Under the pieces are notes generated by a model. That model did no database searches and was not told the DNA's origin. It saw nothing but the letters and a program-made list of their open reading frames with translations. 46,052 nucleotides of DNA from a virus. Where the stretch lies: positions 1 to 46,052 of the IMG/VR virus record IMGVR_UViG_3300017742_000022; one strand, written 5' to 3'. The position numbers were made by a program, and so were the translations under genes. This document shows, in pieces, positions 8,713-43,223 of this stretch (positions within the stretch are counted from its first letter, which is position 1; each line of letters begins with the position of its first letter).

Positions 8713-8732
8713 TTAAATTAAATTAAATTAAA
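8713..8732 (+). repeat. TTAAA pentamer x4 forming the leader of the groEL-like gene
   Basis: Four perfect tandem copies of TTAAA end in the A of the ATG at 8732. Similar but shorter A/T runs precede the starts at 6212 and 13654. There is no Shine-Dalgarno sequence. In Bacteroidota an unstructured A-rich leader commonly drives initiation, so this may act as an enhancer of translation; that is inference. Confidence 0.6.
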
Positions 8733-17142: not shown

Positions 17143-19569
17143 ATGGCTGAGTCAGTTGTAAAAAGTTTTTTTCCTAGCCAAGTTGCTAGTGACGAAGAAA
17201 AAATGTCATCAGAGTATGGCCTTCGGGTAGGTAGAGCTATTCAGGACGAGTGGTTTAAATCGGACTCCGGTACTTCGAGATATAGAAGCAATCAAAATAC
17301 ATTCCATCATTTAAGGTTATACGCAAGAGGCGAACAGCCAATACAAAAGTATAAAGATGAATTATCAATAAATGGGGATTTATCATATCTTAATTTAGAT
17401 TGGAAACCAGTACCAATTATTTCTAAATTTGTAGACATATTGGTTAATGGTATTTCAGAAAGGTCTTTTGATATAAAAGCTTATTCACAAGATCCTTATG
17501 GTGTAAGCAAAAGAACTGCTTATATGGAATCCATTATACGTGATATGCAGACCAAAGAGCTAAACGAATTTGCAGAAGCAGAATTTGGTATTAATCTTTT
17601 TGAAAACAATCCAGATCTTTTACCCGATAGCCAAGAAGAATTAGAGTTACATATGCAGCTAACGTATAAACAAGCTGTAGAGTTAGCTGAAGAGCAGGCA
17701 ATACAGACTTTGTTAAAGGGTAATAATTATGATTTAACAAAGAAAAGAGTTATATACGACCTATCTGTTATAGGTATTGGGGCTGTAAAAAATAGATTTA
17801 GCAAATCAGAGGGCGTTGTTGTTGATTATGTTGACCCCGCTAATTTAGTTTATTCGTACACTGAATCACCATATTTTGATGATATATACTATTGCGGTGA
17901 AGTTAAAAGCATACCTTTAAATGAATTAAAAAAGCAATTTCCTGATTTAACGCAAGAAGATCTTGAGCAAATATCCAAGCAGGGCTTTCAAAATAACGGC
18001 TTTTACGATAGAACAATAAGAAATTACGATCAGTCTGATAGCAATACGGTGCAAGTATTGTACTTTAATTTTAAAACTTATATGAACGAAGTTTACAAAG
18101 TTAAAGAAACAGCTACAGGCGCAAGTAAAATACTTGTTAGAGATGATCAATTTAATCCGCCTATTGAAATGCTTGAAGAGCAATTTGGAAAACTTTCAAG
18201 ATCATTAGAGGTTTTATATGAGGGTGTTTTGGTTTTAGGAACTAACTTTTTGCTAAAATGGGATATGGCAAAAAATATGATGCGTCCAAAAAGTGATCAC
18301 ACTAAAGTGCTCATGAATTACAGTATTGTAGCCCCAAGAATGTATAAAGGTAAAATAGAATCTATAGTCAGCCGCATAACAGGGTTTGCGGATATGATAC
18401 AGCTGACGCATCTTAAATTACAGCAAGTAATGTCAAGAATGATACCTGACGGCGTTTATCTTGATGCAGATGGTTTAGCTGAAATAGATTTAGGCAACGG
18501 AACAAACTACAACCCACAGGAGGCATTAAATATGTTTTTCCAAACAGGTTCTGTTATAGGTAGGTCTATGACTCAAGAGGGAGACATGAATCCTGGCAAA
18601 GTCCCTGTGCAAGAAATAGCAAGTGGGTCTGGCGGTCAAAAATTGCAGTCTTTAATATCTACGTATAATTATTATTTGCAAATGATACGTGATGTTACAG
18701 GTCTTAATGAAGCTAGAGATGGCAGTACCCCTGATTCAAGAGCTTTAGTTGGTATTCAGAAAATGGCCGCTGCGAATTCTAATACCGCAACAAGGCATAT
18801 ATTGGACGCTGGTCTTTTTATAACTGCTCAAACCGCGGAGTGCTTATCATTAAGAATATCAGATATATTGGAATATTCACCATCAAGAGATGCTTTTGTA
18901 CAAAAAATAGGTGGGCATAATGTTGCTACATTAAAAGAAATGTCAGATTTGCACCTTTATGATTTTGGTATATTTTTAGAATTAGCGCCAGACGATGACG
19001 AACGTTCAATGTTGGAAAATAACATACAGACAGCTTTGTCAGCTGGCCTTATAGACCTATCTGATGCAATCGACATAAGAGAAATTAAAAATATAAAGTT
19101 AGCAAATCAAGTTTTAAAAATACGTAGAAAGCGTAAGCAAGAGCAAGACCAGCTAATACAGCAGCAGAATATACAAGCTCAAGCGCAAGCAAACGCACAA
19201 GCTCAAGAGGTAGCTGCCGCTGCTGAAGTACAAAAGAATCAAGCTTTAACGTCTCAAAAAGCTCAGCTGTTGCAAATGGAAAATAATTTTGAATTGCAAA
19301 AAATGCAAGCTGAGGTTGCAGCTAAAAAAGAATTGATGGCTCAGGAATTTCAATATAATATGCAATTAAAAGGCGTAGAGACATCAGGTCAAGCACAGAA
19401 AGAAACGCAAAAAGAAGACAGAAAAGACGAAAGAACAAAGCTGCAAGCAACCCAACAAAGCCAACTTATAGAGCAAAGAAAAAACAATACACCTCCTCAA
19501 AACTTCGAATCTAGCGGAAACGATATTATTGGCGGAGGATTTGACTTAGGTTCCTTCGAGCCTAGGTAA
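17143..19569 (+). CDS. Portal protein
   Basis: An 808-residue protein directly after terL, the standard place for the portal that forms the dodecameric DNA gate and head-tail vertex. The core (residues about 30-650) has portal-like features: an early RYRSNQNTFHHLRLYARG, KPVPIISKFVDILVN (as in portals starting with membrane- or wall-like helices), a central YVDPANLVYSYTES and a GLNEARDGSTPDSRAL motif near the crown. From about 661 to 785 it is Gln/Ala-rich and probably a long coiled coil or barrel, unusually long. No enzymatic motif. Stop is 32 bases before the scaffold-like gene. Confidence 0.9.
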   Translation: MAESVVKSFFPSQVASDEEKMSSEYGLRVGRAIQDEWFKSDSGTSRYRSNQNTFHHLRLYARGEQPIQKYKDELSINGDLSYLNLDWKPVPIISKFVDILVNGISERSFDIKAYSQDPYGVSKRTAYMESIIRDMQTKELNEFAEAEFGINLFENNPDLLPDSQEELELHMQLTYKQAVELAEEQAIQTLLKGNNYDLTKKRVIYDLSVIGIGAVKNRFSKSEGVVVDYVDPANLVYSYTESPYFDDIYYCGEVKSIPLNELKKQFPDLTQEDLEQISKQGFQNNGFYDRTIRNYDQSDSNTVQVLYFNFKTYMNEVYKVKETATGASKILVRDDQFNPPIEMLEEQFGKLSRSLEVLYEGVLVLGTNFLLKWDMAKNMMRPKSDHTKVLMNYSIVAPRMYKGKIESIVSRITGFADMIQLTHLKLQQVMSRMIPDGVYLDADGLAEIDLGNGTNYNPQEALNMFFQTGSVIGRSMTQEGDMNPGKVPVQEIASGSGGQKLQSLISTYNYYLQMIRDVTGLNEARDGSTPDSRALVGIQKMAAANSNTATRHILDAGLFITAQTAECLSLRISDILEYSPSRDAFVQKIGGHNVATLKEMSDLHLYDFGIFLELAPDDDERSMLENNIQTALSAGLIDLSDAIDIREIKNIKLANQVLKIRRKRKQEQDQLIQQQNIQAQAQANAQAQEVAAAAEVQKNQALTSQKAQLLQMENNFELQKMQAEVAAKKELMAQEFQYNMQLKGVETSGQAQKETQKEDRKDERTKLQATQQSQLIEQRKNNTPPQNFESSGNDIIGGGFDLGSFEPR

Positions 19570-24893: not shown

Positions 24894-27800
24894 ATGGCAG
24901 AATTCTTGCACACCTTTCGTGGCGGTAAAATGAACAAGGACCAAGACGAAAGATTAATACCAGAAGGCCAGTATAGAGATGCTTTAAATTTAGAAATATC
25001 CACATCTGAAGGATCGGATACGGGTGCTTTACAAAATATAAAAGGTAATACTGAGGTTTTAAACAAAACATATAATCCATCTACATCTTCGTTTATAGAA
25101 TGGGGAAGTGATTATATTAATAGTTTAACTAATGCCATATGTATAGGCAGCTTTGTAGACACGTTGACTAATAAAATATATTGGTTTATAGCCTCTGACG
25201 AAGTTAGCGTTGTGGCACAATTTTTAGACTCAGATAAAACTGTTTCGCCTCTCTTGGTTGAAAACAAGGCAATATCAAACTTTTTAAACTTTAGAAAAGA
25301 AAACCTAATAACTGGTGTAAGTGTTATAGATAATGTTTTATATTGGACAGACGATCAGACTGAGCCTAAAAGATTGAACATTGCTGACTTTCAAAATTCC
25401 ACCCCTAATTTTACAACTCACTCTAAAATATACAGCAGAGACTTTGTAGAAGAAGATATTACTGTAATAAAAAAATCCCCATTAACCTCTCCTAATATAG
25501 CAATGTTTGCCAGCGTTGTTGGCGGTCCGGGTACAGGTATAACTCCTGTAACTTCTGAATACACCGTAACAGATCAAGAAAACTTTACATTTATACCAGC
25601 TAATGCTGATCCAGAAGACTACATTTCTATGCCCACCTACGCTGAGGCGCAAGAAAATCCAACTAATTATCCTGCTGGGATTACAGGGCAAGTAACTATA
25701 ACCACTAGCGCTGCTCCAACTTGGGCTGCAGGGAGTATAGTAAATTTAGTGGGTAGCCGCATAAACGACTCAAACGAAATAAATGAGTTTGGTATTAGAG
25801 CAGAAGTTGTTTCTGGATCAGGAACTACTTCTATTACTATAAATATTTTATCCATATCTCAAGACATAATTAAAGCCTATGATGATCTTGGCAATATAGA
25901 GCCGATTGTTTGGGAAATTTTATTGGAAGAAGATGCGCCTATGTTCGAGTTTAGGTTTGTACGTTTTGCGTACAGATGGAAATACAAAGATAATCAGTAT
26001 TCTACCTTCTCTCCTTGGACAGAACCAGCGTTCTTAGGTAACGAATTTAAATATGTATCGTCTGACGCTTACAATATTGGTATGACCAATAATATAAGAA
26101 AGTTAGATATATTAGATTTAACCTGGGGTAATGACGATGTTAAAGAAATTGAGATTCTATATAAAGAGTCTATATCTAATGCTGTTTATCTGGTTGATAC
26201 AATTGACGATAAATCAATAACTTCTTTTAGTATAAAATCTGAGATTATTGGCGCGGTAATTGATTCTAATCAAATAATAAGACCATGGGACAACGTACCT
26301 CGCAAAGCTAAGGCGCTAGAGATAACGAAGAATAGAATAGTGTACGGCAACTATTTGCAGAACTATAATGTACCTGCTGTAATAGATATTAGTGTAGATA
26401 AGCAAACGCTAACACACCCTGGCGCTAATGACGAGGATTTGTTAAGAATGCCTTACGATTCTATAAAGTCACTAAGAACGTACCAAGCAGGCCTTTTGTA
26501 TCTAGATGGGTATGGCAGAGAAACACCTGTGTTTACAAATAATAACGCGTCTATAGCGATACCTAAGTCAGATGCCTCGTCTGTAGTTAGCTTGAAATTT
26601 TTAGCTAATCATGCACCTCCTTCGTGGGCAACGCATTTTAAATATTTTATAAAAGAAACATCAAACGAATATTACAATTTAGCATTAGATCGCTATTACA
26701 ACGCTGAAGATGGGAATGTATGGATAAGCTTCCCTTCGTCTGAAAGAAACAAAATAACAGAAGAATCCTACTTAGTCTTAAAAAAGCAGCACGACACAGA
26801 TATATATGTTGCGGAGGAAGCAAGGTATAAGGTTTTAGCTATAGAGCCTGAAGCTCCGGATTTTATTGCGACATTTAACAGGTCTGTAGCATTTGCTAGG
26901 GTACAAATTGAAACAGGGTTTGAGCCTGATTTTATTAGACTAGAATTTAATGGCCCATCAAATGTAACCAACCTCCCGTTCCAAGAAGCTTTTACATCAG
27001 AGCATTTGCTTGTAATAAGATTTGGTGGATCAAGAACAGCGGAATACAGAATAGCAAGTGGAGGCCCAACTGGAGCAGGTGGCCTTTATGAAGTTTTATT
27101 GGACGAACCATTAGGTGAAGACGCAAACTTTTTAAGTGATCTAGCGCAAGGTGCAACAGTTTCAATAAATGTTTTTAAAGAAGTTAAAGAAAATAAGCCT
27201 GAATTTGAAGGTAGATTTTTTGTAAAAATTAATAGAGATTTTGCGTTTCAAGAAAATGTAATTAAGCCTTTTGACGCCATGAACAGAGTGTACGGTGTTC
27301 TAGGAGAGCAGCGAATAAACGTATTTAAACAAAGCACCAATACAGAAGGGAACGGCAATAGATTTGGTTGGAATTATCAAGATCCAGGAGAAGATGATGA
27401 TCCCTGGTTTGAATGCTGTGGAGATGAATTTTCTCGAGAACAAGTTATGGGCTTTGGTGCTTGGGGAGGTAATGGCGTCAACAAAGGTGCGAATACGAGG
27501 GCATGGTATAATCCACCAACAAACGGGGAATCATCGTTTGGGTTTGGATGCGCGGGTGTTGGCGGTAGTGATTATTTAGGTCCTTTAGCGGGAGATATTG
27601 GTCAAGACAATGGTTTACTGCAGCCAGGGGTTTTAGTAAGATTTATAGATAGCAGAAACGGCGACAAAAGTAACGTATATGGCGTTGAAGATGTAGAGGC
27701 TGGTAGGTCAAGAAGAGGCAAGATGAGAACTTGCGGGTGGTTTCCTTGCACAAATTGCTGTCCTGATAGCGACGCGGGTAATCACATGTACACTTTAGCC

Positions 27801-30689
27801 GTTAAGTTAGAAGAGCCGCTTGGTCCTAATGGAAATATAGACTTTTTTGCAAAATTCAACGGGGATAGAAATTCATTAGATAAAGACCGTGGAGGATCCA
27901 ATCCTCGTATACAAGTTTTGGAAGAGGTTATTGGATCAGGCAACAAAACCTTGTCATCAACAAACCCAGCTATTTTTGAAACAGAGCCTAGAGAAGCAAT
28001 TGATTTAGACCTATACTATCAAGCATCTGACGCATTCCCTATAAGTGAGCATGGAGTAGAAAAAACACTAGATTGGCACAACTGCTACTCTTATGGTAAC
28101 GGCGTTGAATCAAACCGCATTAGAGATGATTATAATCAACCTACAATAGACAAGGGGCCAATAGTGTCTGCTCCATTAGATGAGCCTTACGGAGAAGAAA
28201 GAAAGCCTAATGGTCTTATTTACTCGGGTATATATAATTCTAACTCTAATATAAATAATTTAAACCAATTTATACAGGGGTTACAAATAACTAAGGATCT
28301 TAATCCTATATACGGCGGCATTAAGAAATTGCATACAAGAGATACTGATCTTGTTACTTTTTGCGAGGATAAAGTATTAAAAATACTAGCTAATAAAGAC
28401 GCATTATTTAACGCCGATGGAAATACAAATCTAACCGGAACAAACAATGTGCTGGGGCAATCTGTACCATTTGCTGGAGAATTTGGTATATCAAATCACC
28501 CAGAATCTTTTGCTAAGTTTGGATATAGAGTTTATTTTACGGATCAAGCAAGAGGTGCTGTTTTAAGGTTATCAAGAGATGGAATAGAAGAGGTCTCTAG
28601 ATATGGAATGGGCGATTTCTTTGGTGACAATTTAATAGTCAATGATAGATTAATCGGTTCTTACGATATTACCTCTGGGGAATACAACTTAACATTGGCT
28701 AATTTAACCGAAGAGTGGCAAGATAAATTATCTGTAAAAGTTTTTGATAGATTAAACCAAGATCCAGATTGTCCAGTACCCACTAAAAAGTTACCAACCA
28801 CTAAAACTACAGTGTCATTTGCTGAAAACATAAACGGCTGGTCTAGTAGAAAAACTTTTATACCTGAAAGTGGCGCTTACTTAAATGATAATTATTATAC
28901 ATTTAAATCGGGGGCTATTTGGCAACACAAAAGTAATGACAGCTACAATAGTTTTTACGGCATAGGGCCACAAAGCAAAGGTGGTAAGTATTATGAAAGC
29001 TCTGTTGATTTAATAATAAACGATGCCTCTCCTGTAGTTAAAGGTTTTAAAACATTAAACTATACCGGCACAGAATCTTTAGAATACATTTATTCTGTTG
29101 TTGACGGATCGAATGATTTAAGAGAATTTTCAATAGCTGAAATTGTAGCTCAAGGTTTAACCCCAACAGGCGTTACAACTTCACCGGGGTGGTATGCTAA
29201 TTCAGTTTACACTGACCTGCAAGAAGGTCAAGTTAAAGAATTCATAACAAAAGAAGGCAAACATTTTAACCACATAAAAGGGTTATCAACGTTTTTCAAC
29301 GACAATTGTGATACTAATGTTAACACGCCTGAGTTTTCTGTACAAGGCATAGGTAGAGCAGACCAGCTAACCGGCGACACTGAACCTACTGCTTTTTATA
29401 TAAATGTATGTATAGATCCTTCGTGTTACGTAGAAGAGGAATTACCAAACGTGGTGGATCAGTTTTATGAAGGAACAGAAGACATTCCTTTAACTGTGCA
29501 ACTGCAAGGCCCTACTAATTGTTCTCAAGCTACAACGTATAGTTTAGTATTAGATTCTACCTCAGGTGGAAATTTAACATTAAACTCAAGCGGCTCTTTT
29601 GTATTTAATCCTAATTTAAATTTTTATGGGCAAGCAGGAACATTTGTAGTTGAAGCATGCTGTGGTTCTATATGTAATACTTTTACTGTTACTTTAGAGT
29701 TTTTAGAAGTGCCCGAAGATCCTTATTTTGTTAGTATAGCTCCAACGCCGAACTTATTGCCAGGTGATTGCTTTACTTATAATCCTATAATATTAGCAGA
29801 CCCAGATCACGAGTCACAGCAATTATTTATTCAAAGACCTGTTCCTAATTTACCAGCTTGGATGGCACAACCTGAACCTATTAATGACGGCACAGGTAAT
29901 TGGTATATACCAAATAGCTGTGTACCAGCCGGGCAGCAACCTGGCTTGATAGATTTCACTATGACAGTGGAAGATCCTGATGGAAATACGGGTACGCAAC
30001 AAGTAGTAGGTGACACTATTGCCGCGGCTGTGGCTAATTTAGAGTTTTTAATAACAACTAGACGCGCACAAACAGCAAGAACCTGGGTTGATCCAAATGC
30101 AATAGATCCTACTCCAGTCCAAATGGCTGCTATTGACGGTAGTAATCACGGATGCGGAAGAGGTACTTACATGCTTACAGGGAATGGCGTAACATTTGCT
30201 AGAGTTTATGTGGGTAATACGTTTGATGATCTAACACCTCCTCCGGGGAGTCAACATTGTTTTGATTCATATAGTACAGACGCCAACGGCAATCCAAACA
30301 GCCCAACGGGAGACGTGTTATGGTCGGGTACAATACCTTCCGCGGTTGCTCAAGGCGTTACGGACACAGATCTTAGACATCAGGCTCCATTCCAAAAATA
30401 TATTACTGCAAATGATGACTTTGACACTACCAGAGACAGATATAATTTAGTAACCATAGATATAGAAACAGCTCAACAAATAATAGCAAATTCACCTGAC
30501 CCTAATAATCCTAGTTACATTGTTTTTGGATTAATTCCAGATACTTATGTTGCGGGTGGAGTTTTAAATACACACGGGGACGGGGTTACAATGCAAATAT
30601 TTAAAGAGGAGCAAGAAGTTTATGCGGCAGTACAACCAAATAACTCCGCTTTAACGTTAGATGTTTTAACTGGAGATATAATACCTTAA
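24894..30689 (+). CDS. Very large tail / stabilisation-type structural protein
   Basis: A 1931-residue virion protein. The N-terminal HTFRGGKMNKDQDERLIP followed by QYRDALNLEISTSEG and GALQNIKGN is a pattern I know as a tail 'stabilisation' protein of crAss-like and related phages, predicted to fold as a beta-propeller or nozzle. Residues about 200-800 are beta-rich with many aromatic motifs. Cysteine clusters (ECCGDE at 840-845; CGWFPCTNCC at 947-956) are unusual for a cytosol-assembled phage protein and may bind metal. Residues about 1505-1605 resemble a cadherin or tandem-95 domain (EGTEDIPLTV). The C-terminal 300 residues are unrecognised. The role is inferred from the N-terminus and gene order. 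Confidence 0.75.
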   Translation: MAEFLHTFRGGKMNKDQDERLIPEGQYRDALNLEISTSEGSDTGALQNIKGNTEVLNKTYNPSTSSFIEWGSDYINSLTNAICIGSFVDTLTNKIYWFIASDEVSVVAQFLDSDKTVSPLLVENKAISNFLNFRKENLITGVSVIDNVLYWTDDQTEPKRLNIADFQNSTPNFTTHSKIYSRDFVEEDITVIKKSPLTSPNIAMFASVVGGPGTGITPVTSEYTVTDQENFTFIPANADPEDYISMPTYAEAQENPTNYPAGITGQVTITTSAAPTWAAGSIVNLVGSRINDSNEINEFGIRAEVVSGSGTTSITINILSISQDIIKAYDDLGNIEPIVWEILLEEDAPMFEFRFVRFAYRWKYKDNQYSTFSPWTEPAFLGNEFKYVSSDAYNIGMTNNIRKLDILDLTWGNDDVKEIEILYKESISNAVYLVDTIDDKSITSFSIKSEIIGAVIDSNQIIRPWDNVPRKAKALEITKNRIVYGNYLQNYNVPAVIDISVDKQTLTHPGANDEDLLRMPYDSIKSLRTYQAGLLYLDGYGRETPVFTNNNASIAIPKSDASSVVSLKFLANHAPPSWATHFKYFIKETSNEYYNLALDRYYNAEDGNVWISFPSSERNKITEESYLVLKKQHDTDIYVAEEARYKVLAIEPEAPDFIATFNRSVAFARVQIETGFEPDFIRLEFNGPSNVTNLPFQEAFTSEHLLVIRFGGSRTAEYRIASGGPTGAGGLYEVLLDEPLGEDANFLSDLAQGATVSINVFKEVKENKPEFEGRFFVKINRDFAFQENVIKPFDAMNRVYGVLGEQRINVFKQSTNTEGNGNRFGWNYQDPGEDDDPWFECCGDEFSREQVMGFGAWGGNGVNKGANTRAWYNPPTNGESSFGFGCAGVGGSDYLGPLAGDIGQDNGLLQPGVLVRFIDSRNGDKSNVYGVEDVEAGRSRRGKMRTCGWFPCTNCCPDSDAGNHMYTLAVKLEEPLGPNGNIDFFAKFNGDRNSLDKDRGGSNPRIQVLEEVIGSGNKTLSSTNPAIFETEPREAIDLDLYYQASDAFPISEHGVEKTLDWHNCYSYGNGVESNRIRDDYNQPTIDKGPIVSAPLDEPYGEERKPNGLIYSGIYNSNSNINNLNQFIQGLQITKDLNPIYGGIKKLHTRDTDLVTFCEDKVLKILANKDALFNADGNTNLTGTNNVLGQSVPFAGEFGISNHPESFAKFGYRVYFTDQARGAVLRLSRDGIEEVSRYGMGDFFGDNLIVNDRLIGSYDITSGEYNLTLANLTEEWQDKLSVKVFDRLNQDPDCPVPTKKLPTTKTTVSFAENINGWSSRKTFIPESGAYLNDNYYTFKSGAIWQHKSNDSYNSFYGIGPQSKGGKYYESSVDLIINDASPVVKGFKTLNYTGTESLEYIYSVVDGSNDLREFSIAEIVAQGLTPTGVTTSPGWYANSVYTDLQEGQVKEFITKEGKHFNHIKGLSTFFNDNCDTNVNTPEFSVQGIGRADQLTGDTEPTAFYINVCIDPSCYVEEELPNVVDQFYEGTEDIPLTVQLQGPTNCSQATTYSLVLDSTSGGNLTLNSSGSFVFNPNLNFYGQAGTFVVEACCGSICNTFTVTLEFLEVPEDPYFVSIAPTPNLLPGDCFTYNPIILADPDHESQQLFIQRPVPNLPAWMAQPEPINDGTGNWYIPNSCVPAGQQPGLIDFTMTVEDPDGNTGTQQVVGDTIAAAVANLEFLITTRRAQTARTWVDPNAIDPTPVQMAAIDGSNHGCGRGTYMLTGNGVTFARVYVGNTFDDLTPPPGSQHCFDSYSTDANGNPNSPTGDVLWSGTIPSAVAQGVTDTDLRHQAPFQKYITANDDFDTTRDRYNLVTIDIETAQQIIANSPDPNNPSYIVFGLIPDTYVAGGVLNTHGDGVTMQIFKEEQEVYAAVQPNNSALTLDVLTGDIIP

Positions 30690-32495: not shown

Positions 32496-32828
32496 ATGGA
32501 CGAAATAACATTAATATTCCCAGAGCCTATACAAGTTTCGGTTCAAATAGGAGACACTGCTTACTATACAAATGATCCAAATGGTGAAACAATAAAGAAA
32601 ATTGGAGTTATAACAGCAATTGATTATGCTAATAACTCTATTACCTGCGAAATACAACCCGCCGCTCAAAGACCTTCACTCACTAGCTTTATATTGTTTA
32701 GTAAAACAAACTCAACCAATATAAATTCACTTACAGGTTACTATCTAAATGCTCAATTCAGAAACAATTCTTTAAATAGTGTAGAAATGTTTTCTGTGGG
32801 AACAGAGATTTTTGAGAGTAGTAAATAA
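32496..32828 (+). CDS. Small beta-rich structural protein
   Basis: A 110-residue protein starting 2 bases after the previous stop. Strands such as IQVSVQIGDTAYYTND, KIGVITAIDYANNSITCEI and SFILFSKTNSTNINSL suggest a small beta-barrel. The pattern GDTAYYTN...GxITAID is typical of small phage proteins of the SH3-like type that fill structural joints. No family is recognised. Its stop is 33 bases before the ejection-protein cluster, which has its own A-rich leader. Confidence 0.55.
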   Translation: MDEITLIFPEPIQVSVQIGDTAYYTNDPNGETIKKIGVITAIDYANNSITCEIQPAAQRPSLTSFILFSKTNSTNINSLTGYYLNAQFRNNSLNSVEMFSVGTEIFESSK

Positions 32829-32861: not shown

Positions 32862-33521
32862 ATGTTACCAATATTAGGAGCTGTCAAAGGGCTCGCTGGA
32901 ATTGCCGGCGGCATAATTGGTAGCGGTAAAAGAAAAAGAGAATTACGGGATGCTCAAACAGCATATAACAGACAGATGGCTAATTTTAAAAATTTAGATA
33001 CATCTAACGCGTATGCTAACATGGAAAACACCATGGAAGACTTAACTGTAAATCAAGGCCAAGCGCAATTTGCAGCAGAACAGCAACAGCAAGCCTTAGC
33101 GAATACTATGTCTGGTCTGCAAGGAGCTGCTGGCGGATCTGGAATTGCAGCATTAGCACAATCGTTAGCAAACCAACAATCACAAAATTTAAGAACTGCA
33201 TCCGTTAGCATAGGCCAGCAAGAGCAAGCAAACCAAATGGCAGAGCGAAACATGGCAAGCCAACTTGATATGCAAGAGCGCGCAGGCGAGCTACAATCTA
33301 GGCAAGCTAAAAAATCTCAAACAGAAACGTTATTAGGTATGTCTCAACAAAGGCTTGGCGCAGCTAAAGCAGCTAAAGCAGCAGCTACGAAGTCAATAAT
33401 AGGTGGGGTTACCGGTTTAGCCGGGGCTGTATTGCCGTCAATACCAGGCTTATCTGAAATGGGTGGTGGCGATGGAAGCTTTGGCTTTATGGAAAACATG
33501 ATGGGCGCACAGTCAGGATAA
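32862..33521 (+). CDS. Internal virion / ejection protein, T7 gp14-like
   Basis: A 219-residue Ala/Gln/Gly-rich protein. The N-terminus has a hydrophobic, glycine-rich segment (GAVKGLAGIAGGIIGSGKR, residues 5-24). The centre is a Gln/Ala-rich coiled-coil-like region with YANMENTMEDLTVNQGQAQF, and the C-terminal part is Ala/Gly-rich with a second hydrophobic helix (SIIGGVTGLAGAVLP). This layout resembles T7 gp14 and similar podoviral internal proteins that insert in the outer membrane on ejection. It heads a run of three genes of growing size, as in T7 gp14-gp15-gp16. Confidence 0.65.
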   Translation: MLPILGAVKGLAGIAGGIIGSGKRKRELRDAQTAYNRQMANFKNLDTSNAYANMENTMEDLTVNQGQAQFAAEQQQQALANTMSGLQGAAGGSGIAALAQSLANQQSQNLRTASVSIGQQEQANQMAERNMASQLDMQERAGELQSRQAKKSQTETLLGMSQQRLGAAKAAKAAATKSIIGGVTGLAGAVLPSIPGLSEMGGGDGSFGFMENMMGAQSG

Positions 33522-33531
33522 AAAAAAATAT

Positions 33532-34779
33532 ATGGCAAATCAACAATTAATACAAGGGGAATTATTTGCTGCAACTGGAGGACTTAAGGATGGAGGTTTT
33601 TTAGATGTAGGCGGTATTGTAGGTGCTGAACTTGAAAAAGCTAATAAAGGTATTCAAGCAGGCAGAGAAAGAGCAAGGCGTCTTGTAAAAGAGCAGGAAA
33701 TCAAAGCTAAAGCTGTAGACAAGCAAATAGCAGGCTATGTTAATAAAATGAAATCAAATGTTGATTTAACAGGGGTTTCACCGGAACAGCAAAAAGCTAT
33801 TCAAAGTTACTTAGTTAACCAAAAAAACGAATACGTAAAAGCGGCTAACGAGATAGTAAACTACTCCGCGAGTGATCCGGAATACATGCACTATGCCGAC
33901 ATAATGAATTCCGTCAACAATTCTTTTGTTAATTTATCTAGTACATTAAAAACATACAAAGCTAATCAAGCAGAGTTCGTTGATGACTTTCAAAACAACA
34001 GGCTATCTAACGGCGATCTAGTACGTAAAAAACAGGCGGGAGAAATATATGATCCTAAAACAAATTTTAGCATAGAGAATGGAGATTTTATTTTTAGCAC
34101 CTCGGATGGCAAAAAAGTTAATTTTAGGGATTTTAAGAATCCATCGGAAAAAGCTTTTAAGACAGCAACGTCTATAGCCACAATTGCTAACACAGTATAT
34201 AAAGCAGGAGCAAAGCTTAACCCAACGCAAGCGTCAAGCATAAGATTACAGCTTGAGGAAGCATTTAACACAAACCCAGACGCATTACGCTCTATAGCGG
34301 CAGACGGTTTTTTTAACGGTCAACCTATGGCTATTAATCAAGAAGCTCTCAATAACGTTGAAAACACAGACGAACTTCAAACAATAGTTATAAATCAATT
34401 AATGGAGGGTATTTCGGCGAGCGCGCTCCAGGGTTACAATGACAAGCAATCTAAAATTAATCGGGGAAGCGGATCAAGTACCTCGGGTTATAAATCTCCA
34501 GAAACAAAATATTTAACATCTACAGAATCACCAACAGGTAAAGCTGGTAATTTTGCTATTTATTTACCTAAAGATCCAAATGGTAAAATTAAATATGTAC
34601 CAATTGGAAAGACTAATAATTCTAACCAAACGCCAACTACAACGCCTGCGTCTGCAGTAGAGTTTCCAGATATAATGGAGGAGGCAGAAAAGTTTATTAA
34701 AAAAACATATCCCGATCTTAAGGAAGGAACTCAAGAGTTTGCGGATAAGTTAATGGAAAAATATAATTCACTTATATAG
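33532..34779 (+). CDS. Internal virion / ejection protein, T7 gp15-like position
   Basis: A 415-residue, Lys/Asn/Gln-rich protein of helical appearance. The first 30 residues include an LIQGELFAATGGLKDGGF segment, after which residues 40-200 form long charged helices (GRERARRLVKEQEIKAKAVD, QKAIQSYLVNQKNEYVKAANE). Residues about 300-370 are low-complexity (GSGSSTSGYK). No enzymatic motif. Between the gp14-like protein and the giant polyvalent protein, it occupies the position of T7 gp15, whose oligomer spans the periplasm. This is inference from order and composition; sequence similarity was not established. Confidence 0.55.
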   Translation: MANQQLIQGELFAATGGLKDGGFLDVGGIVGAELEKANKGIQAGRERARRLVKEQEIKAKAVDKQIAGYVNKMKSNVDLTGVSPEQQKAIQSYLVNQKNEYVKAANEIVNYSASDPEYMHYADIMNSVNNSFVNLSSTLKTYKANQAEFVDDFQNNRLSNGDLVRKKQAGEIYDPKTNFSIENGDFIFSTSDGKKVNFRDFKNPSEKAFKTATSIATIANTVYKAGAKLNPTQASSIRLQLEEAFNTNPDALRSIAADGFFNGQPMAINQEALNNVENTDELQTIVINQLMEGISASALQGYNDKQSKINRGSGSSTSGYKSPETKYLTSTESPTGKAGNFAIYLPKDPNGKIKYVPIGKTNNSNQTPTTTPASAVEFPDIMEEAEKFIKKTYPDLKEGTQEFADKLMEKYNSLI

Positions 34780-34781
34780 TT

Positions 34782-37700
34782 ATGTCAAAATATAAATTAG
34801 CAAGCGGAGAAGTTGTTGATACTAAAGATTATACTGAAAATCAACTTACTTACTTTAAATATAAAAATCCTGATGCAAGCATTGTAGAGGATTTTCAAAA
34901 CGGGGTTGTGGAGACGGGTGCGTCTGTAACTCCAGGAATAAACGTAGCGTCCGACAATGGGGTCTCCAGTTCGGGAGATGGTTCATTGGATTTAGTATCA
35001 AATCTTAAAGGTGTTAAATTTGATAACGAAACAAATACATATGTAGAAGGTACTGATTATCAAGATTTATTTGAGCAAGAAGAAGAAGAAGGCGTTAAGA
35101 CTTTACAGGAGCTTTATAAAAATTCAGGTTTAAATTTTGAAGAATCTAATTTTCAAACAGATTATATTACGGATAGCCCTGCGCAAATTTCTAGCATGTT
35201 TGATGTTGTCAAGGTCACAATACCCGGCGTAGATGATTCTGTAAAATTACAATTTGATACTACTGATCCTGGAGCTTGGAAAAGTAATTTAAATATTTTA
35301 GAAAAATTTACAAAAAAGCACGAAAAGTTTTTACAAGCACCTGTAAACACTTCTACTAAAGAAAAATATTTATCTTGGGAAAATAATAACCAAGAAATTA
35401 AAAATGCTGGTCTTGAAAATACAAATAAGTATTTAAAGTCAGAAGATTTATTTGATACAAAAACTAAAACCGTAAGAAGCGGTTACTCATCACCTTATGG
35501 GGGAGCTGCTGTTGTGTCGCAAGAGTATACAGTTGTAACGCAACCGTATGAAAAAGAATTAAACCAAGCTAATACATTGCTAAAACAGCAATATCCAGAT
35601 TTATCTAGCGAGCAATTAGAAGAGGCTTCTAAAAAAGTTGTTAGGAATCAACTTTATGAGCAAGCTATGAACGAGGCTAAGTACAATGCCCGTGAAAACG
35701 CTATCTCTGAAGGTGTTTTGACGCAAGAAGAAATGTATGCAGGTGGGAGCTTGGTTAAAAGTGATTTAGCTAAAGAATACAATACTGCTACCAAAAAGCT
35801 TGAAACATTAATAGACACAAGAGGTGAAACCGTTGATATTATAAAAATAGTTAACAGCGGGGAATATTCTGCAGACGATCAAAATAAAGTTTTACAATGG
35901 GGAGCTAAAAATAATATATTTATAGATCCTATGGCTGAAACTGTTGTTTTAGAGAACGGACAAGAAGTAAGCAGTAGTTTCGTAGAAGTTGCGAATCAAT
36001 TAAACGCAACAATGTCTGCGACAGAGATTTTGTTTAAAAACATTAGTGACCAACAAAACGTTGCAACTGAAAAAATTAAAGATACTAATTTAACCATAGA
36101 GGCAGCTTCAAAAAATTACGATCTCCACGAAAAATACCTTACAAATGTAGGCTTAGGTTTTGCGGATATAGCGGTTGGAGGCGTTTATTTATTAGGCTCC
36201 ATACCTATGCTGCTTGCTGACGATGAGACACAAGCCGGCTGGGATGCGTTTGGAGCTGGTTATTCGCAAGCTTCTCAAGAGATAAGAAATAGTTTTGTAA
36301 GAGACGTTCAATTTAACGAAGCATTTAAAGACTATAACTTTGGTAAATTTGCAGCGCAGGAAATATCTAATCAAATACCTATAATAGCCACAATGATTAT
36401 GTCTGGCGGTACTGCAGCTCCTTATGTTATTGGTGCTACAACAGCAGGCGGCAAAATGATGGACATGCAAGCCGAAATATCTAATGGTACTGCAGATTAC
36501 AGTAGAACAGAGGTTTGGCTAAAGTCACTAGGGTATGGTGCCGCTGAAGGTGTTTTTGCGGGATTAACTACTGTTCCTATACTGAAAAGAGCAAATCAAG
36601 CTTGGGTTAATGCTGGTAAGGACCAATTGGTTAAAAACAATATGATTAACTTCTTTAAAAGTTATAACAAAAAAGGTATTGTATTTGAAGGTCTTTTAGA
36701 ATCCGGTGGCGAAATTGCTACAGTAGGAACGCAAAATTTGATAGATGGCAATACATTCACGCAAGGTATGGACCACGCGGGCTTCTCTGGTTTTGGTTTT
36801 GGTATTGCTTTTGCTGGAGTGCCATTTTTAAAAGGAATGTACAATTCTAAATTCACTAGCTTTAATAAACTTCAAAAAGCACGTACATTACAAAAAGAAA
36901 TAGACGACCTAGGTAAGCGTTGGGAAACAGCGCAAACAGACAACGCTAGAACTAAAATATCTGAAATGATCGCTGCAAAAAGCGATAAACTTGCAGACGA
37001 AATTAAAAAGCAAGAAGATATAATAAACAATAACCTAACAGAAAGAGGTGGCCAATATGTATTTAATATAATACAAAAACAAGCTGATCTTCAAAACAAG
37101 GCACAGCAAATTGCTAATGACCCAGATCTTTCGCAAGATTTAAAGAAAAAGCAAATTGCAGAATTGCAGGAAGAATTTGATGTCCTAGTTAGAATAAAAG
37201 ACCACGCGGTGTCTGACACCAGCATGCTTAAAAATGAAACTGAGTTTACTGCTTTTGAAGCTTTAGATAAAGAAGCTTACGATAATTACATAGATACAGC
37301 AACTCAGCAGTTAAGTGACGAAAAAGGCGGTAAAACATCTTCTGAAAACGACATAAAAGATAGGGCTTACAATCTTTATTTTGGCGATCAAGTAAGGGCT
37401 GAAAATTCTAAACAACAATCTGGTAAAGGCGCCTTCTTAGGTAAAGACGGATTTATATCTTTTGAAACAAGACAAGAAGCCAACAATTACATAGACTCTA
37501 GAGAAGATCTATCGCCTGAAGATAAACAAAAGCTTAAAAACGGTATTGACAATGGTAATGACGGAGCGGCTGTAGAGTCTGAAGGTAATATAAAATCTTT
37601 AACTATAGCGGTTGTTGAAAACCAAGTAGCCAACCAAAGAAAATACACAAGGACGCACGAGGTTGGGCACCAAGCTTTTTGGGAAATATTTAAAGACCAA

Positions 37701-40700
37701 AAAAATCAAGGTGCATTTGATCAAATATCTGAACAATTGTTAACCACATTAAAAGCGACAGACAGAGCTACATACGATCAGTTATTAAACGATAGCATAT
37801 ACGTTAATGGTGCTATGGATTCTGCTGAGGTTATTTCTAAGTTTTTAGAATATGTGGCAGATGGCAAAATAACAAACGCACAAAGAGCAAAAGGTATATC
37901 AGGTTTGTTTGGTACAATGGTTCAAAAAACTTTTGGCACTGATTACGACTTTAACTTTAAAGGTGAGCAGGACATATTTAACTTTGTGGTGGGCATGGCA
38001 CAAAAAATTAAAAGCGGCCAGCTAACGACAAAAGATATTACATCTGCAAAAGAAACTAATTTGGTTAAAAAATTAACCACAGAGCAAAAAGGTAAATCTA
38101 AGCAAAGACGAAAAGCATTTTCATTGGCTTCCGCTCAAGAATCATTAGGTAATATACCACAAGAAAATATAAAAGGTGCGAAGGCTCAGACTGATATTGC
38201 TATGGAGCTCCCTGGTATGGTAAAAGCTCAAGTTGCTAAAAGATTTAATTTAAGACCCCAACAATTAGAAGGCTTTACAGATGCCGTTGTTGAAAGAATG
38301 TATTTAGGCCAGGAAACTACTAAATGGGACGGCAGGGGTGAACTGTACGGCTTTTTAAATGGCCGTATTGCTTTAAGAATAAAAGATGTTGTAAGAGACG
38401 AGTATAAAAAACCTCAACAAGACAGGCTATATTTATCTTCAATAGACAATCTACAAGCAGAAGATCAAAAAGGCTTAGCACAAGAAGAAGCTACAGCCCC
38501 TACTAAAGTTAGCGATAGAAAGCAATATAGAAATTTAGCAGACAGTAAAGTATTATCTACGGAGCAAGCAGGTTCTGTAAAACAAAAAATACTATCTACC
38601 ACAAGAGTATTAAAGTCTAAACTTGACGAAAGCATTTCCGCTAATCGTACCGTAACACCAATTGTTGCTGAAATTAAAAAGCAAATGGGTAAGCAAGCGG
38701 ATATTGAGTTTAAGAAAATGCTCGGCGCTAAAAAAGATGGTGAGTTACGAAAAAACTTATTAAAGCTTAAAAAGCCTATATTAGAAAACATGACCACCAC
38801 ATGGCTAATGCAATCTATGCCATTTGCGGTACAGAAGCAGGTTAATGGTAGATTTACTTCTGACTGGAAAGGAAAAAAAATAGACAGAGAAACTGTAAGC
38901 ACAGATAAAGCAGGAAGAACAGCGGGTGCGGAATTAGTAAGAAGAATTCCGAATGCCGTTAATAACGTTAGCGATGCGGATTTCTTAGGCTATATGTTTA
39001 AAGGTGATGCTGTTATACGAGGAAGAAAAGAAGCGCTTGCAAAAGCAATGGCAGAAGAGTATTCTTTTGATATAATTAGTAAAGAACTGCAAGACCCTGA
39101 CAGCGACATCAGAAAAGCTTTTGAACAAAATCAAACATTATTGGGTGTAGAGCTGTTAGATAATTACGCGCAAGAATTTAATAGACAAGCGGAAAGAGGA
39201 AACATTAAGTTTTCAATGAGCCCTCAGCAAATGCAGGATATAAGCAAACACCTTGACCAGCTTAAAGATATTTTAATAAATCAAAAAGCCGGTAAAGTAA
39301 CAAAAGCTAATTTAAGAAACGCAATGACTAGGGTTTATATAGAGGAGAACAATACGTCGCTAACCTCTGATCTTATAAATAAATTTGCTAATGACGCTGC
39401 TCTTACTATCGATAAATACTTTAAAAAGCAAAAAGATATAAATGTTGCGAGCTTTAAAAACTTTGTTTTAAATGGTGTTTTGAAATTAGAAAACTCTACT
39501 AATTTATTAAAAACTGTTGGCATAACAGCAGAGGACGTATTCGGTAGTTATACTAACCTAGGTAATACACCTCAGGTTATAGAAAGACGACGTGCGCTAG
39601 AACAAGAGTACAATATAAAGCTTGTAGAAGAAAAAGGTAAAAAAGGTATAGAGCTTATAGTAAAATACATGAAAGGTCACAACGCTACCTCATCAAAAAT
39701 TGGTGGCGGTAGAGGCCAATTCTACGCTAATGTAGGTGATTATTATAATAACAATCTAGCTAACATACCAGGCGTTACAATAAAAGGTAGTAAGGTATTT
39801 TATAAAGGCGAGCTTATAGATGGGAAGACGCCCGCTCAAAAAGTATATAAAACAGTAGACAAAAAGAAAGTGCCAATATCAGAGGCTGAATTTGCTGAGC
39901 AGTATGACGAAAGAAATGCGGCGGCTAAAGAGGCTTTTGATTTAATGGTAGACTTTTTAGGTTTTGTAAGATCTAAGAACGACCCTGTACTCTGGGTTGC
40001 TACAATGAAAAGTTTGGATAGCAACATGGAGTCGATACTCAAAGCTTCCGCAAATGTAGAGTATTATTATGTAGGCAAAACAAATGCAGAGCTACGCTAC
40101 GAGCACATTGTACCGACAAATTACATGATGCTGCAATTAACAAATCATTTTTGGAATAAGAAAATGGATTTAAATGCTTTGCAAAGTGCCTATTCGGTGG
40201 CTATTATACCGAAAGATATGGATGAAAATGTTAACTTACAGTTTCAATCCACTATGACTTTAAACTGGAATCCTTTAACAGATCCGGCTTGGTATAGATA
40301 TTATAACCATACTACTTTTGGAATGGACTTTATGTTGCCTATACGTAAAATTGGCGGCGTAGATAAAGGTAAGGTTTTTGGTGAAGAATGGTCTAAATTT
40401 AATTCCATTCTTAAAACCAAAGCCGCTCAAACAGTGGCGGATTTTAAAATGACTGACGAGGCTATTGCCAAAGCTACTACAATGGCTTTTTCTAGCGCTC
40501 CAAAAGGAATAAGCGTATGGGATTTTGACGACACGCTCGCAAGAACAAAAAGTAATGTTTTATATACAATGCCCGACGGTACAAAAGGCAAATTAGACGC
40601 TGCTGAATTTGCTGCAAAAAGCGAAGAGTTTGCATCTAAAGGGGCTGAGTTTGATTTTAGCGAGTTTAGCAAAGTTATGAACGGCTCCAAAGGACCATTC

Positions 40701-43223
40701 TTTGAAAAAGCAATTGCTCGTAATAAAAAGTTTGGCAATGAAAATGTTTATATATTAACTGCTAGACCGGCAAATTCAAAATATGCTATACACAAATTTT
40801 TAAAAGGTATAGGCCTAGACATACGCTTGGAGAATATATTTGGATTAGCGGACGGAAACCCTAAGGCTAAAGCTGATTGGATGATAACAAAGGTGAACGA
40901 AGGTTATAATGATTTTTATTTTGCAGACGACCATATGGGCAATGTTAAGGCTGTCCGTGATGTTTTAAATGCTTTTGATGTTAAAGGTAAGGTTCAACAA
41001 GCTAAAATTAAATTTAGTGAAACTCTAGATACCAAGTTTAACGAAATGATCGGAAGACAAACCGGGGTTGATTCTGTAAAAGAGTTTTCAAAAGTTGTTG
41101 CTAGGAGAAGAGGTAAAAGAAAAGGCAAGCTTAAGTTTTTTATTCCACCAGGCGCAGAAGATTTTAGAGGATTAACACAATATACTTTTGCCGGCAAAGG
41201 CAAACAAGGTGAGGCGGATCAAAAGTTTTTTGAAGAAGCTTTAATGGATCCTTATTTCCAAGGTGTTGCTTCAATAGAAAGAGACAGACAAGCTATAAAA
41301 ACAGCTGTTAAAAGTTTGCTTTCTACGTATAAGCCGGTTAAGAAAAAACTTAATAAGTTAACGCCTGATGGCGATTACACTTTTGATGCTGCTATTAGAG
41401 TTTACTTATGGACAAAAGCTGGTTATGAGATACCTGGTATATCTAAAAGAGATCAAAAGAAACTTTACGATTTAGTATCTAAAGATCAAGAATTAAATGG
41501 ATATGCAGAAGGGTTGCTGCTAACAGCAAAAGTAGATGCGTGGCCTGAGCCTTCTGAATACTGGGATGCGCAAACAACTTTAAGTGACCTTAACAATCTT
41601 ACTGAAAAAGTAAATAGAAAACAGTATTTAACTAAGTTTATTGAAAATGCTGATATAATATTTAGTCCAAAAAATCTAAATAAAATAGAGGCGCTTTACG
41701 GTAGAGCAACCAGGGACGCAATAGAAGATGCTTTGCATGCCATGAAGACCGGTAGCAATAGACCCAGCGGCAGTAATAAAATAACAAATAGATGGTTAAA
41801 CTGGGTTAACAATTCTGTTGGTACTATAATGTTCTTCAACAGAAGATCCGCGTTGCTACAGACTATTTCGTCTATTAACTTTATAAATTGGTCCGATAAC
41901 AATCCATTAAAAGCTGGGCTTGCGTTTGCAAATCAACCACAATACTGGAAAGATTTTGCAATGATATTTAATTCAGATAAATTGAAGCAAAGAAGAGGCG
42001 GGTTAAAATCAGATGTTCAAGAGGCTGAAATTGCTAATGCCGCTAAAAATGCTAAAGACAAAGCAACAGCCATAACATCTTATCTATTAAAGATAGGTTT
42101 CACACCTACACAAATAGCAGATAGTTTTGCAATTGCCGCGGGTGGTGCTACCCTATATAGAAATAGAGTAAACACATATTTAAAGCAAGGTTTAAATAAA
42201 GCTGAAGCAGAGGTAAAAGCTTTTCAAGATTTCAGTAAGCTTTCTGACGAAGCTCAGCAGTCAGGTGATCCAGCATTGGTATCGTCACAACAAAGAAGTG
42301 TGGCTGGGCGTCTTATATTGGCTTTTCAAAACACTCCTATGCAATATACTAGATTAATGAAAAAGTCTGCTCAGGACCTTATAAATGGCCGAGGCGACGC
42401 TAAAACACATATATCTAAGATACTTTATTATGGAACAATACAGAACTTTATATTTAACTCTCTACAAAACGCGTTATTTGCGTTAGTGCCTGGTTTTGAC
42501 GAAGAAGAGCTTGATGAAGATGAGAGAGCTAAGGCTGAAGAAAAAAAGCAGGTTAGAATATTAAATGGTATGGTTGACTCTATTCTTAGAGGTACCGGTA
42601 TGTATGGAGCAATAGTTTCTACGGCTAAAAATACTATTATGAAATTTAAAGATCAAGAGGATAGAGGTTTTATGGCTGATCATACGTATACTATTATAGA
42701 GGCTGCAAATATATCACCGCCTATTGGTTCTAAGCTTAGAAAAATGTACTCTAGTATTCAAACATATAAGTTCGATAAAGACGTTATAGAAAAGCACCCA
42801 TGGGACGTTACTATAGATGGTAAATTTAATTTGTCTCCTACATATAATATAATAGGCAATATGTCCTCTGCTATATTGAACTTACCGCTTGATAGAGCTA
42901 TAATGGAGGCTCAAGCTGTAGCGGAAGCACTAGATGCTAGAAACACTAAATTTCAAAGGGTAGCTTTAGGATTAGGGTGGAGAACTTGGGATGTTGGAGC
43001 TGAGAATGAAGAATTTGATTTAATAAAAGCTGTAGCAAAAATTAAAAGAAAAAAAGCTGGTGTAGAAAAATCAAAAGCTACAAGAAAAGAAAATAAAAGA
43101 AAAGAGCAGGAAAGAATAAGCAATATGTCTGAAAAAGAATACAACGAGTATATGGACGCTAAAATAATGAAGAGAAGAGAAGCTGCTAGGAAGTCTGCAG
43201 AAACCAGAAGACAAAATAAATAA
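34782..43223 (+). CDS. Giant large polyvalent / ejection-type protein (zincin, sigma-like, HAD domains)
   Basis: A 2813-residue protein, the largest in the window, in the T7 gp16 position. Visible parts: a charged N-terminus; glycine/alanine-rich hydrophobic segments at about 457-480, 533-600 and 647-690 that could cross a membrane; coiled coil at about 695-830; an HEXXH zincin at 959-963 with a likely third ligand near E1016; a sigma-70 region-2-like block at about 1135-1240 (GELYGFLNGRIALRIKD); a HAD phosphatase-like domain with D1914-F-D1916-D-T1918, LTAR (T1993) and D2049-D2050; and a conserved C-terminal region (RSALLQTISSINFINW, SFAIAAGGATLYRNR, LILAFQNTPMQYTR). I know the C-terminal block from giant polyvalent phage proteins thought to enter the cell with the DNA. 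Enzyme activities are inferred. Confidence 0.8.
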   Translation: MSKYKLASGEVVDTKDYTENQLTYFKYKNPDASIVEDFQNGVVETGASVTPGINVASDNGVSSSGDGSLDLVSNLKGVKFDNETNTYVEGTDYQDLFEQEEEEGVKTLQELYKNSGLNFEESNFQTDYITDSPAQISSMFDVVKVTIPGVDDSVKLQFDTTDPGAWKSNLNILEKFTKKHEKFLQAPVNTSTKEKYLSWENNNQEIKNAGLENTNKYLKSEDLFDTKTKTVRSGYSSPYGGAAVVSQEYTVVTQPYEKELNQANTLLKQQYPDLSSEQLEEASKKVVRNQLYEQAMNEAKYNARENAISEGVLTQEEMYAGGSLVKSDLAKEYNTATKKLETLIDTRGETVDIIKIVNSGEYSADDQNKVLQWGAKNNIFIDPMAETVVLENGQEVSSSFVEVANQLNATMSATEILFKNISDQQNVATEKIKDTNLTIEAASKNYDLHEKYLTNVGLGFADIAVGGVYLLGSIPMLLADDETQAGWDAFGAGYSQASQEIRNSFVRDVQFNEAFKDYNFGKFAAQEISNQIPIIATMIMSGGTAAPYVIGATTAGGKMMDMQAEISNGTADYSRTEVWLKSLGYGAAEGVFAGLTTVPILKRANQAWVNAGKDQLVKNNMINFFKSYNKKGIVFEGLLESGGEIATVGTQNLIDGNTFTQGMDHAGFSGFGFGIAFAGVPFLKGMYNSKFTSFNKLQKARTLQKEIDDLGKRWETAQTDNARTKISEMIAAKSDKLADEIKKQEDIINNNLTERGGQYVFNIIQKQADLQNKAQQIANDPDLSQDLKKKQIAELQEEFDVLVRIKDHAVSDTSMLKNETEFTAFEALDKEAYDNYIDTATQQLSDEKGGKTSSENDIKDRAYNLYFGDQVRAENSKQQSGKGAFLGKDGFISFETRQEANNYIDSREDLSPEDKQKLKNGIDNGNDGAAVESEGNIKSLTIAVVENQVANQRKYTRTHEVGHQAFWEIFKDQKNQGAFDQISEQLLTTLKATDRATYDQLLNDSIYVNGAMDSAEVISKFLEYVADGKITNAQRAKGISGLFGTMVQKTFGTDYDFNFKGEQDIFNFVVGMAQKIKSGQLTTKDITSAKETNLVKKLTTEQKGKSKQRRKAFSLASAQESLGNIPQENIKGAKAQTDIAMELPGMVKAQVAKRFNLRPQQLEGFTDAVVERMYLGQETTKWDGRGELYGFLNGRIALRIKDVVRDEYKKPQQDRLYLSSIDNLQAEDQKGLAQEEATAPTKVSDRKQYRNLADSKVLSTEQAGSVKQKILSTTRVLKSKLDESISANRTVTPIVAEIKKQMGKQADIEFKKMLGAKKDGELRKNLLKLKKPILENMTTTWLMQSMPFAVQKQVNGRFTSDWKGKKIDRETVSTDKAGRTAGAELVRRIPNAVNNVSDADFLGYMFKGDAVIRGRKEALAKAMAEEYSFDIISKELQDPDSDIRKAFEQNQTLLGVELLDNYAQEFNRQAERGNIKFSMSPQQMQDISKHLDQLKDILINQKAGKVTKANLRNAMTRVYIEENNTSLTSDLINKFANDAALTIDKYFKKQKDINVASFKNFVLNGVLKLENSTNLLKTVGITAEDVFGSYTNLGNTPQVIERRRALEQEYNIKLVEEKGKKGIELIVKYMKGHNATSSKIGGGRGQFYANVGDYYNNNLANIPGVTIKGSKVFYKGELIDGKTPAQKVYKTVDKKKVPISEAEFAEQYDERNAAAKEAFDLMVDFLGFVRSKNDPVLWVATMKSLDSNMESILKASANVEYYYVGKTNAELRYEHIVPTNYMMLQLTNHFWNKKMDLNALQSAYSVAIIPKDMDENVNLQFQSTMTLNWNPLTDPAWYRYYNHTTFGMDFMLPIRKIGGVDKGKVFGEEWSKFNSILKTKAAQTVADFKMTDEAIAKATTMAFSSAPKGISVWDFDDTLARTKSNVLYTMPDGTKGKLDAAEFAAKSEEFASKGAEFDFSEFSKVMNGSKGPFFEKAIARNKKFGNENVYILTARPANSKYAIHKFLKGIGLDIRLENIFGLADGNPKAKADWMITKVNEGYNDFYFADDHMGNVKAVRDVLNAFDVKGKVQQAKIKFSETLDTKFNEMIGRQTGVDSVKEFSKVVARRRGKRKGKLKFFIPPGAEDFRGLTQYTFAGKGKQGEADQKFFEEALMDPYFQGVASIERDRQAIKTAVKSLLSTYKPVKKKLNKLTPDGDYTFDAAIRVYLWTKAGYEIPGISKRDQKKLYDLVSKDQELNGYAEGLLLTAKVDAWPEPSEYWDAQTTLSDLNNLTEKVNRKQYLTKFIENADIIFSPKNLNKIEALYGRATRDAIEDALHAMKTGSNRPSGSNKITNRWLNWVNNSVGTIMFFNRRSALLQTISSINFINWSDNNPLKAGLAFANQPQYWKDFAMIFNSDKLKQRRGGLKSDVQEAEIANAAKNAKDKATAITSYLLKIGFTPTQIADSFAIAAGGATLYRNRVNTYLKQGLNKAEAEVKAFQDFSKLSDEAQQSGDPALVSSQQRSVAGRLILAFQNTPMQYTRLMKKSAQDLINGRGDAKTHISKILYYGTIQNFIFNSLQNALFALVPGFDEEELDEDERAKAEEKKQVRILNGMVDSILRGTGMYGAIVSTAKNTIMKFKDQEDRGFMADHTYTIIEAANISPPIGSKLRKMYSSIQTYKFDKDVIEKHPWDVTIDGKFNLSPTYNIIGNMSSAILNLPLDRAIMEAQAVAEALDARNTKFQRVALGLGWRTWDVGAENEEFDLIKAVAKIKRKKAGVEKSKATRKENKRKEQERISNMSEKEYNEYMDAKIMKRREAARKSAETRRQNK

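Follow-up and report, generated by a model that had tools for sequence, protein, structure and literature searches.

The window analyzed here, a virus record of 46,052 bases, raises the question of what a phage does with a single 2813-residue protein that holds a zincin, a HAD domain and a remotely sigma-like block in one chain. The initial annotation had described a virion protein of such polyvalent composition. The combination was borne out in part, and the position and size of the gene fully: a single unbroken ORF at 34782-43223 on the plus strand encodes 2813 amino acids and takes up 18.3% of the window. Two scans of IMG/VR yielded about 120 relatives (in the second scan, 80 were kept of 498 confirmed). 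Pfam and PDB searches with the whole protein returned noise only.

Genomic setting and virion homologues

The ORF is the final gene of the structural block and is preceded by genes for GroEL, GroES, terminase, portal and virion proteins.

17143..19569, plus strand: portal protein (phrog_6547; 43-54% identity to portals of flavobacterial and related phages)
24894..30689, plus strand: 1931-residue virion structural protein in the position of phi40:1 gp97 (phrog_14478, E 4.5e-135)
32862..33521, plus strand: 219-residue ORF, by gene order the positional match of the virion protein phi40:1 gp99
33532..34779, plus strand: 415-residue ORF, by gene order the positional match of the virion protein phi40:1 gp100; a sequence match was searched for and none was found
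34782..43223, plus strand: large polyvalent protein gene, virion type, 2813 amino acids, 315 kDa (uninterrupted ORF; about 120 IMG/VR relatives)

In sequence, the portal shares 43-54% identity with its counterparts in Maribacter phage Panino, the Flavobacterium elemo phages and an environmental podovirus. Because of this identity and of the upstream genes, the window is assigned by sequence to a podovirus-like relative of the flavobacterial Pervagoviridae, Pachyviridae and Elemovirus group, and its host is presumably a flavobacterium.

GroEL and GroES are phage encoded (at 8732-10285 and 14110-14700, by PHROG matches), with GroES directly 5' of terminase, as is also the case in phi38:1 and the elemo phages. 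Methylated GroEL has been reported among the free-virion proteins of phi38:1 (PMC13288928). The ORFs at 24894-30689 and 32496-32828 match separate parts of phrog_18548 (positions 3-88 and 148-239), a family of unknown role, as if one ancestral protein had been divided between two ORFs. At the end of the window, the minus strand (44924-46039) encodes part of a ribonucleotide reductase large subunit; it covers only positions 441-795 of the 975 in phrog_84 and may belong to a split, interrupted or cut-off gene.

In phi38:1 and phi40:1 (Pervagoviridae), the order of genes from GroES, terminase and portal to gp97-gp101 is the same as in the window, with gp101 last, and phi40:1 gp97 to gp101 are all annotated from experimental MS/MS proteomics. 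The gp101 proteins of the two phages (1691 amino acids) are 99.9% identical. Likewise, phi18:3 gp123 (Pachyviridae; 1935 amino acids), which occupies the same gene position and is likened to the window protein on that ground, is annotated as a virion protein from experimental MS/MS proteomics. In hhalign, window residues 430-819 were aligned with phi38:1 gp101 (E 1e-10), residues 425-882 with gp18 of Flavobacterium phage elemo (E 1e-14) and residues 427-813 with gp74 of Tenacibaculum phage Gundel_1 (E 8e-13), all of these being single-comparison E-values. The helical module at residues 430-800 is the part held in common with MS-proven virion proteins.

In neither gp101 was a zincin, a HAD or the conserved C-terminal core detected. 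As the HAD and C-terminal parts were not found in gp101, the MS/MS evidence from phi40:1 covers the shared helical module only. Elemo gp18 and Gundel_1 gp74 combine the homologous helical module with an HEXXH motif; by profile-profile comparison, the zincin is related to that of elemo gp18, and window residues 2453-2620 are related to a C-terminal stretch of Gundel_1 gp74. Their cargo is different (DUF3293, weakly GNAT-like), and they have neither a HAD nor an enriched linker motif.

The view of a virion-type protein in the place of the last ejection protein thus agrees with a syntenic homologue (phi40:1 gp101) and a positional counterpart (phi18:3 gp123), both with MS/MS support. By analogy with the homologue documented in virions, the 2813-residue protein would itself be packaged, and it may then be injected. 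The more specific comparison with T7 gp16 held for position; however, homology to T7 gp16 was not found, and Pfam, PHROG and PDB searches did not detect a T7 gp16-type N-terminal transglycosylase domain.

Modules of the 2813-residue chain

As far as each module was detected, 115 near-full-length relatives share one constant module order: helical module, zincin, sigma-like block, 'post', 'mid', HAD and C-terminal core. This constant order, the exchangeable HAD slot and the motif at module borders, the most telling features of the protein, show up only when relatives are compared and were thus out of reach of the initial annotation. In the window protein, these modules and their key residues are placed as follows.

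34782..36068, plus strand: residues 1-429, N-terminal part varying by lineage (sparsely occupied and weakly conserved in the family alignment)
36069..37181, plus strand: residues 430-800, conserved helical module whose hydrophobic helices are marginal (hhalign, hydropathy)
37554..38099, plus strand: residues 925-1106, zincin metallopeptidase (HEXXH...E invariant in 46 relatives)
37656..37670, plus strand: residues 959-963, HEVGH active-site motif
37827..37829, plus strand: Glu1016, predicted third zinc ligand (from its invariance)
38172..38651, plus strand: residues 1131-1290, block remotely like sigma-70 region 2 (profile comparisons; low model confidence)
38649..39230, plus strand: residues 1290-1483, 'post', a conserved module of unknown fold (profile matches in 113 of 115 relatives)
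39882..40475, plus strand: residues 1701-1898, 'mid', an alpha/beta module before the HAD (profile, model)
40491..41015, plus strand: residues 1904-2078, HAD phosphatase-type domain in an exchangeable slot (motifs, PDB fold search, phrog_415)
40521..40535, plus strand: residues 1914-1918, HAD motif I, DFDDT (invariance in relatives)
40581..40595, plus strand: residues ~1934-1938, HAD flap hairpin (nested-domain insertion points in relatives L005, L013, L027 and L103)
40926..40931, plus strand: residues 2049-2050, HAD motif IV, DD (invariance in relatives)
41064..43016, plus strand: residues 2095-2745, conserved all-helical core (BFVD matches to large polyvalent protein folds)

Sequence upstream of the helical module ranges in length from ~40 to ~1075 amino acids across relatives. 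Membrane segments had been proposed at ~457-690. The region does fall within the conserved helical module; however, only segment 456-474 (KD 1.7) reaches the usual transmembrane threshold, segments 532-552, 583-601 and 665-684 being marginal (KD 1.2-1.5), and the membrane reading is a weak one.

The identity of the zincin, which had been proposed from the HEXXH motif at 959-963, is certain on sequence grounds. H959, E960, H963 and E1016 are the only invariant columns among 46 aligned zincin segments with 17% mean identity, and only 0.007 HEXXH copies would be expected from composition. The zincin profile matches 114 of the 115 near-full-length relatives, and pLDDT is mostly 75-93 across residues 820-1026 of the local zincin model. 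A PDB fold search with the long 401-1520 model gave no match and was uninformative. In one relative (L037, ORF residue 1061), the zincin motif is a residue longer, HEALIH; this HEXXXH variant has been described for polyvalent metallopeptidases (PMC5512222).

The HAD domain that had been placed at 1914-2050 is likewise certain by motif and fold class. Motifs I-IV are present, and the model has a Rossmann-like fold with a flap, whose hairpin corresponds to strands 356-360 and 366-370 of model A. Across 47 relatives, D1914xD1916xT1918, T1993, K2037 and D2049-D2050 do not vary. PDB fold searches returned HAD phosphatases at probabilities of 0.72-0.97, with E-values of only ~0.4-1, and the Pfam HAD match reached only E 0.077. 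The polynucleotide kinase family phrog_415 matches 33 of the 47 HAD segments (best E 4.6e-11). A further likeness to polynucleotide kinase-phosphatases is that a P-loop kinase takes or invades this slot in other relatives; the window-family domain differs from those enzymes in being embedded in a virion-type protein. As the HAD segment has no sequence match in PDB, its substrate is a guess. The outcome in which the chain lacked zincin, sigma-like and HAD folds was checked for and did not occur.

These catalytic signatures bear on the possibility that the protein is mainly a structural component of an ejection channel, functionally like T7 gp15/gp16, with enzyme domains that are degenerate or serve only assembly or passage through the cell wall. 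The gene adjoins virion protein genes, large parts of the models are helical, and the homologues phi38:1 gp101 and Panino gp69 have no detectable HEXXH or HAD. However, within the zincin nothing but the catalytic residues is invariant, the HAD motifs are conserved while their slot is swapped for other enzymes, as expected of a payload, and no lysozyme or transglycosylase domain was found in the 2813-residue protein. We regard a mainly structural role as very unlikely.

The sigma-70-like block that had been claimed at ~1135-1240 was upheld in part. A 39-sequence profile compared with all PDB sequences placed sigma factors in the top three positions (E 0.05, 0.11 and 0.39), with alignments in the classical region 2 register. 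Forward scores exceeded reversed ones for 27 of 30 bacterial sigma factors, compared with 47% of other ORFs, and hhalign gave E 0.003 against sigma, while seven control profiles reached no better than 0.037. However, Pfam Sigma70 matched neither the window nor 32 relatives, the AlphaFold model of the block is of low confidence and no PDB fold match was found. Sequence comparison points to a similarity to sigma-70 region 2 that is genuine though distant, short of a proven sigma domain or family membership. A functional sigma-70 domain that the particle brings in and that starts phage transcription with host RNA polymerase would add to the explanation that we favor below, and the rank, register and scores of the sigma factors are in its favor. 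Against it, besides the missing Pfam match and confident model, no residue is invariant among 39 relatives, reversed helical decoys reach scores similar to those of sigma, and the promoter-binding region 4 was not identified (no Pfam match to its HTH; a few profile alignments do extend beyond region 2). A working sigma domain thus seems quite unlikely.

No Pfam or PDB sequence relative was found for the C-terminal core, and no Pfam LPD family matched the 2813-residue protein. The predicted fold of the core, however, matches BFVD proteins named large polyvalent protein-associated, PolyVal-ART and MuF, and also a Gundel_1 structural protein. As this fold matches annotated polyvalent proteins, the protein is placed, by its model, in the polyvalent class (PMC5512222): it is very large, encoded by a late gene, and has two unrelated enzymatic domains and a domain fold shared with polyvalent proteins. 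Given the gp101 homology, the gene position and these fold matches, it is probably a phage large polyvalent protein that is packaged and ejected. In terms of charge, residues 1-1113 (34782-38120), zincin included, are acidic (pI 4.8), and the four predicted fragments of residues 1114-2813 (38121-43220) are all basic (pI 9.1-9.5).

An exchangeable slot and a peptide motif at module borders

The HAD was found in 110 of the 115 near-full-length relatives. In four of the remaining five (L037, L123, L126 and L133), an AAA_33/zeta-type P-loop kinase fills the slot (E 1e-12 to 2e-16). The fifth, L023, has a segment that alone gave no Pfam match and is assigned as DUF6934-like because it resembles the DUF6934 repeats of L036. 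In L036 itself, two tandem DUF6934-like copies, each bordered by IKFS, are inserted after the HAD (ORF residues ~2204-2632).

The slot is also invaded from within. Four relatives (L005, L103, L013 and L027) carry an extra domain within the HAD, inserted behind a 'VLYTMP'-type sequence at a point that in the model is the flap hairpin. The L027 insert (ORF residues 2109-2309) is an AAA_33/zeta-type P-loop kinase (E 1e-12), which puts a kinase-phosphatase pair within one domain slot. The L005 insert resembles ART-PolyVal (E 0.005, short of the Pfam cut-off), while those of L013 and L103 had no Pfam match to ART-PolyVal and are ART-like by eye only. An intein at the HAD motif was considered and rejected, the inserts being ART-like or kinase domains. 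A PF18760 search of 297 genomes of one bacterial phylum gave two matches.

The borders between modules carry a short motif, [VI]-X-F-S, in which X is mostly K, Q, A or M and the next residue after S is usually K, R, E or Q; in full it reads [VI]-[KQAM]-F-S-[KREQ].

38112..38123, plus strand: residues 1111-1114, possible linker motif KAFS at the border of zincin and sigma-like block (weakest of the four)
39204..39215, plus strand: residues 1475-1478, linker motif IKFS at border J1, post|mid (within low-confidence linker 1472-1480)
40482..40493, plus strand: residues 1901-1904, linker motif MAFS at border J2, mid|HAD
41007..41018, plus strand: residues 2076-2079, linker motif IKFS at border J3, HAD|core (within low-confidence linker 2074-2079)

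The motif occurs in 183 of 343 junction windows (53%) compared with 81 of 6625 other windows (1.2%), where the border windows were set by profiles ending near the motif and homologous positions across relatives are not independent; KAFS 1111-1114 was left out of these statistics. The three borders J1, J2 and J3 are non-homologous. Some relatives have the same X at all three (VAFS in L002 and L055, VMFS/LMFS in L101, QFS in L083). Where the same XFS peptide recurs within a protein, the codons differ in 89 of 103 pairs and the serine codon families in 62 of 103. As the codons differ, it is the peptide, not the DNA, that is conserved, and DNA recombination sites at the borders are unlikely. Co-variation of X across borders exceeds that in shuffles, but it was not significant in a matched-pair test controlled for relatedness (p 0.16, 0.49 and 0.26) and is not claimed as proof of protease-site coevolution.

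Nor does the motif appear to be a general feature of large polyvalent proteins: it was not seen in P1 DarB, DdrB and DarA, in N4 gp50, in the phi38:1, Gundel_1 and elemo proteins or in one Bacteroidota polyvalent protein, and the three loose matches in RPP1 vRNAP are of another kind.

Processing, delivery and relation to known systems

From their sequence and placement, the border motifs may be sites of proteolysis at which a payload would be released, the simplest candidate protease being the zincin of the protein itself. The explanation that we favor, and consider somewhat more probable than all others together, is that of a polyvalent protein that is produced late, goes into the virion and is ejected together with the genome. 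Packaging and passage would be served by the helical module (430-800) and the helical core (2095-2745), and the zincin (925-1106) would cleave the protein at its [VI]-X-F-S linkers between modules, before or after ejection. Cleavage would free a HAD phosphatase most like those of polynucleotide kinase-phosphatases, perhaps acting on RNA ends or nucleotides, and possibly also the sigma-like domain, which could help to recruit host RNA polymerase. The HAD slot would then be a cassette site, exchanged among lineages as host defences change. A stricter version, a self-processing effector chain whose zincin reads the motif at every border and, ahead of all phage gene expression, frees a set of proteins that includes a sigma-like factor and a swappable enzyme acting on RNA or nucleotides, appears unlikely.

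Alternatively, the protein may be packaged and ejected uncut, with the zincin attacking host or envelope proteins and [VI]XFS serving as a flexible linker or docking motif. Indeed, N4 virion RNA polymerase is packaged unprocessed although it bears a zincin, and effector zincins have been discussed for the class (PMC5512222); moreover, the canonical motif is absent from about half of the junction windows. What argues against an uncut chain is that one specific peptide, and not just a linker-like composition, turns up at three non-homologous borders and is written there with serine codons of different families, and that the ejected polyvalent proteins P1 DarB/DdrB and N4 gp50 show no such enrichment. 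An uncut chain is therefore somewhat unlikely in our judgment.

N4 virion RNA polymerase (gp50) resembles the window protein as a giant ejected zincin protein encoded beside virion genes, but it carries a T7-type RNA polymerase and has no linker motif in the stretch examined. Large polyvalent proteins as a class (Iyer et al. 2017, PMC5512222) are alike in size, late expression, zincin and unrelated enzyme domains, and share ART-like variants and the C-terminal fold with the window family. In contrast to them, the window protein has no Pfam LPD matches, and its family keeps a strict module order, exchanges a single slot and carries a motif at module borders. The part of that text searched does not list HAD or sigma among its domain types. 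Polyvalent proteins were already known, as were their zincins and the delivery presumed for them. New are the fixed frame with its single exchange slot, the effector-type domains nested in the HAD flap, the border motif, the specific domain combination and the sigma-like block; in the non-subscription literature searched, we found no description of the combination, block, slot, nesting or motif.

The 2017 class description left open the role of the metallopeptidase and the processing of polyvalent virion proteins (PMC5512222). The present family puts a candidate cleavage code on defined residues, and the cassettes swapped at its one slot form a natural series. Culturable relatives exist among Cellulophaga, Flavobacterium and Tenacibaculum phages, and a homologue has already been seen in the virions of one. 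If the favored explanation is true, marine flavobacterial phages would exchange their early weapons without rebuilding the frame that delivers them.
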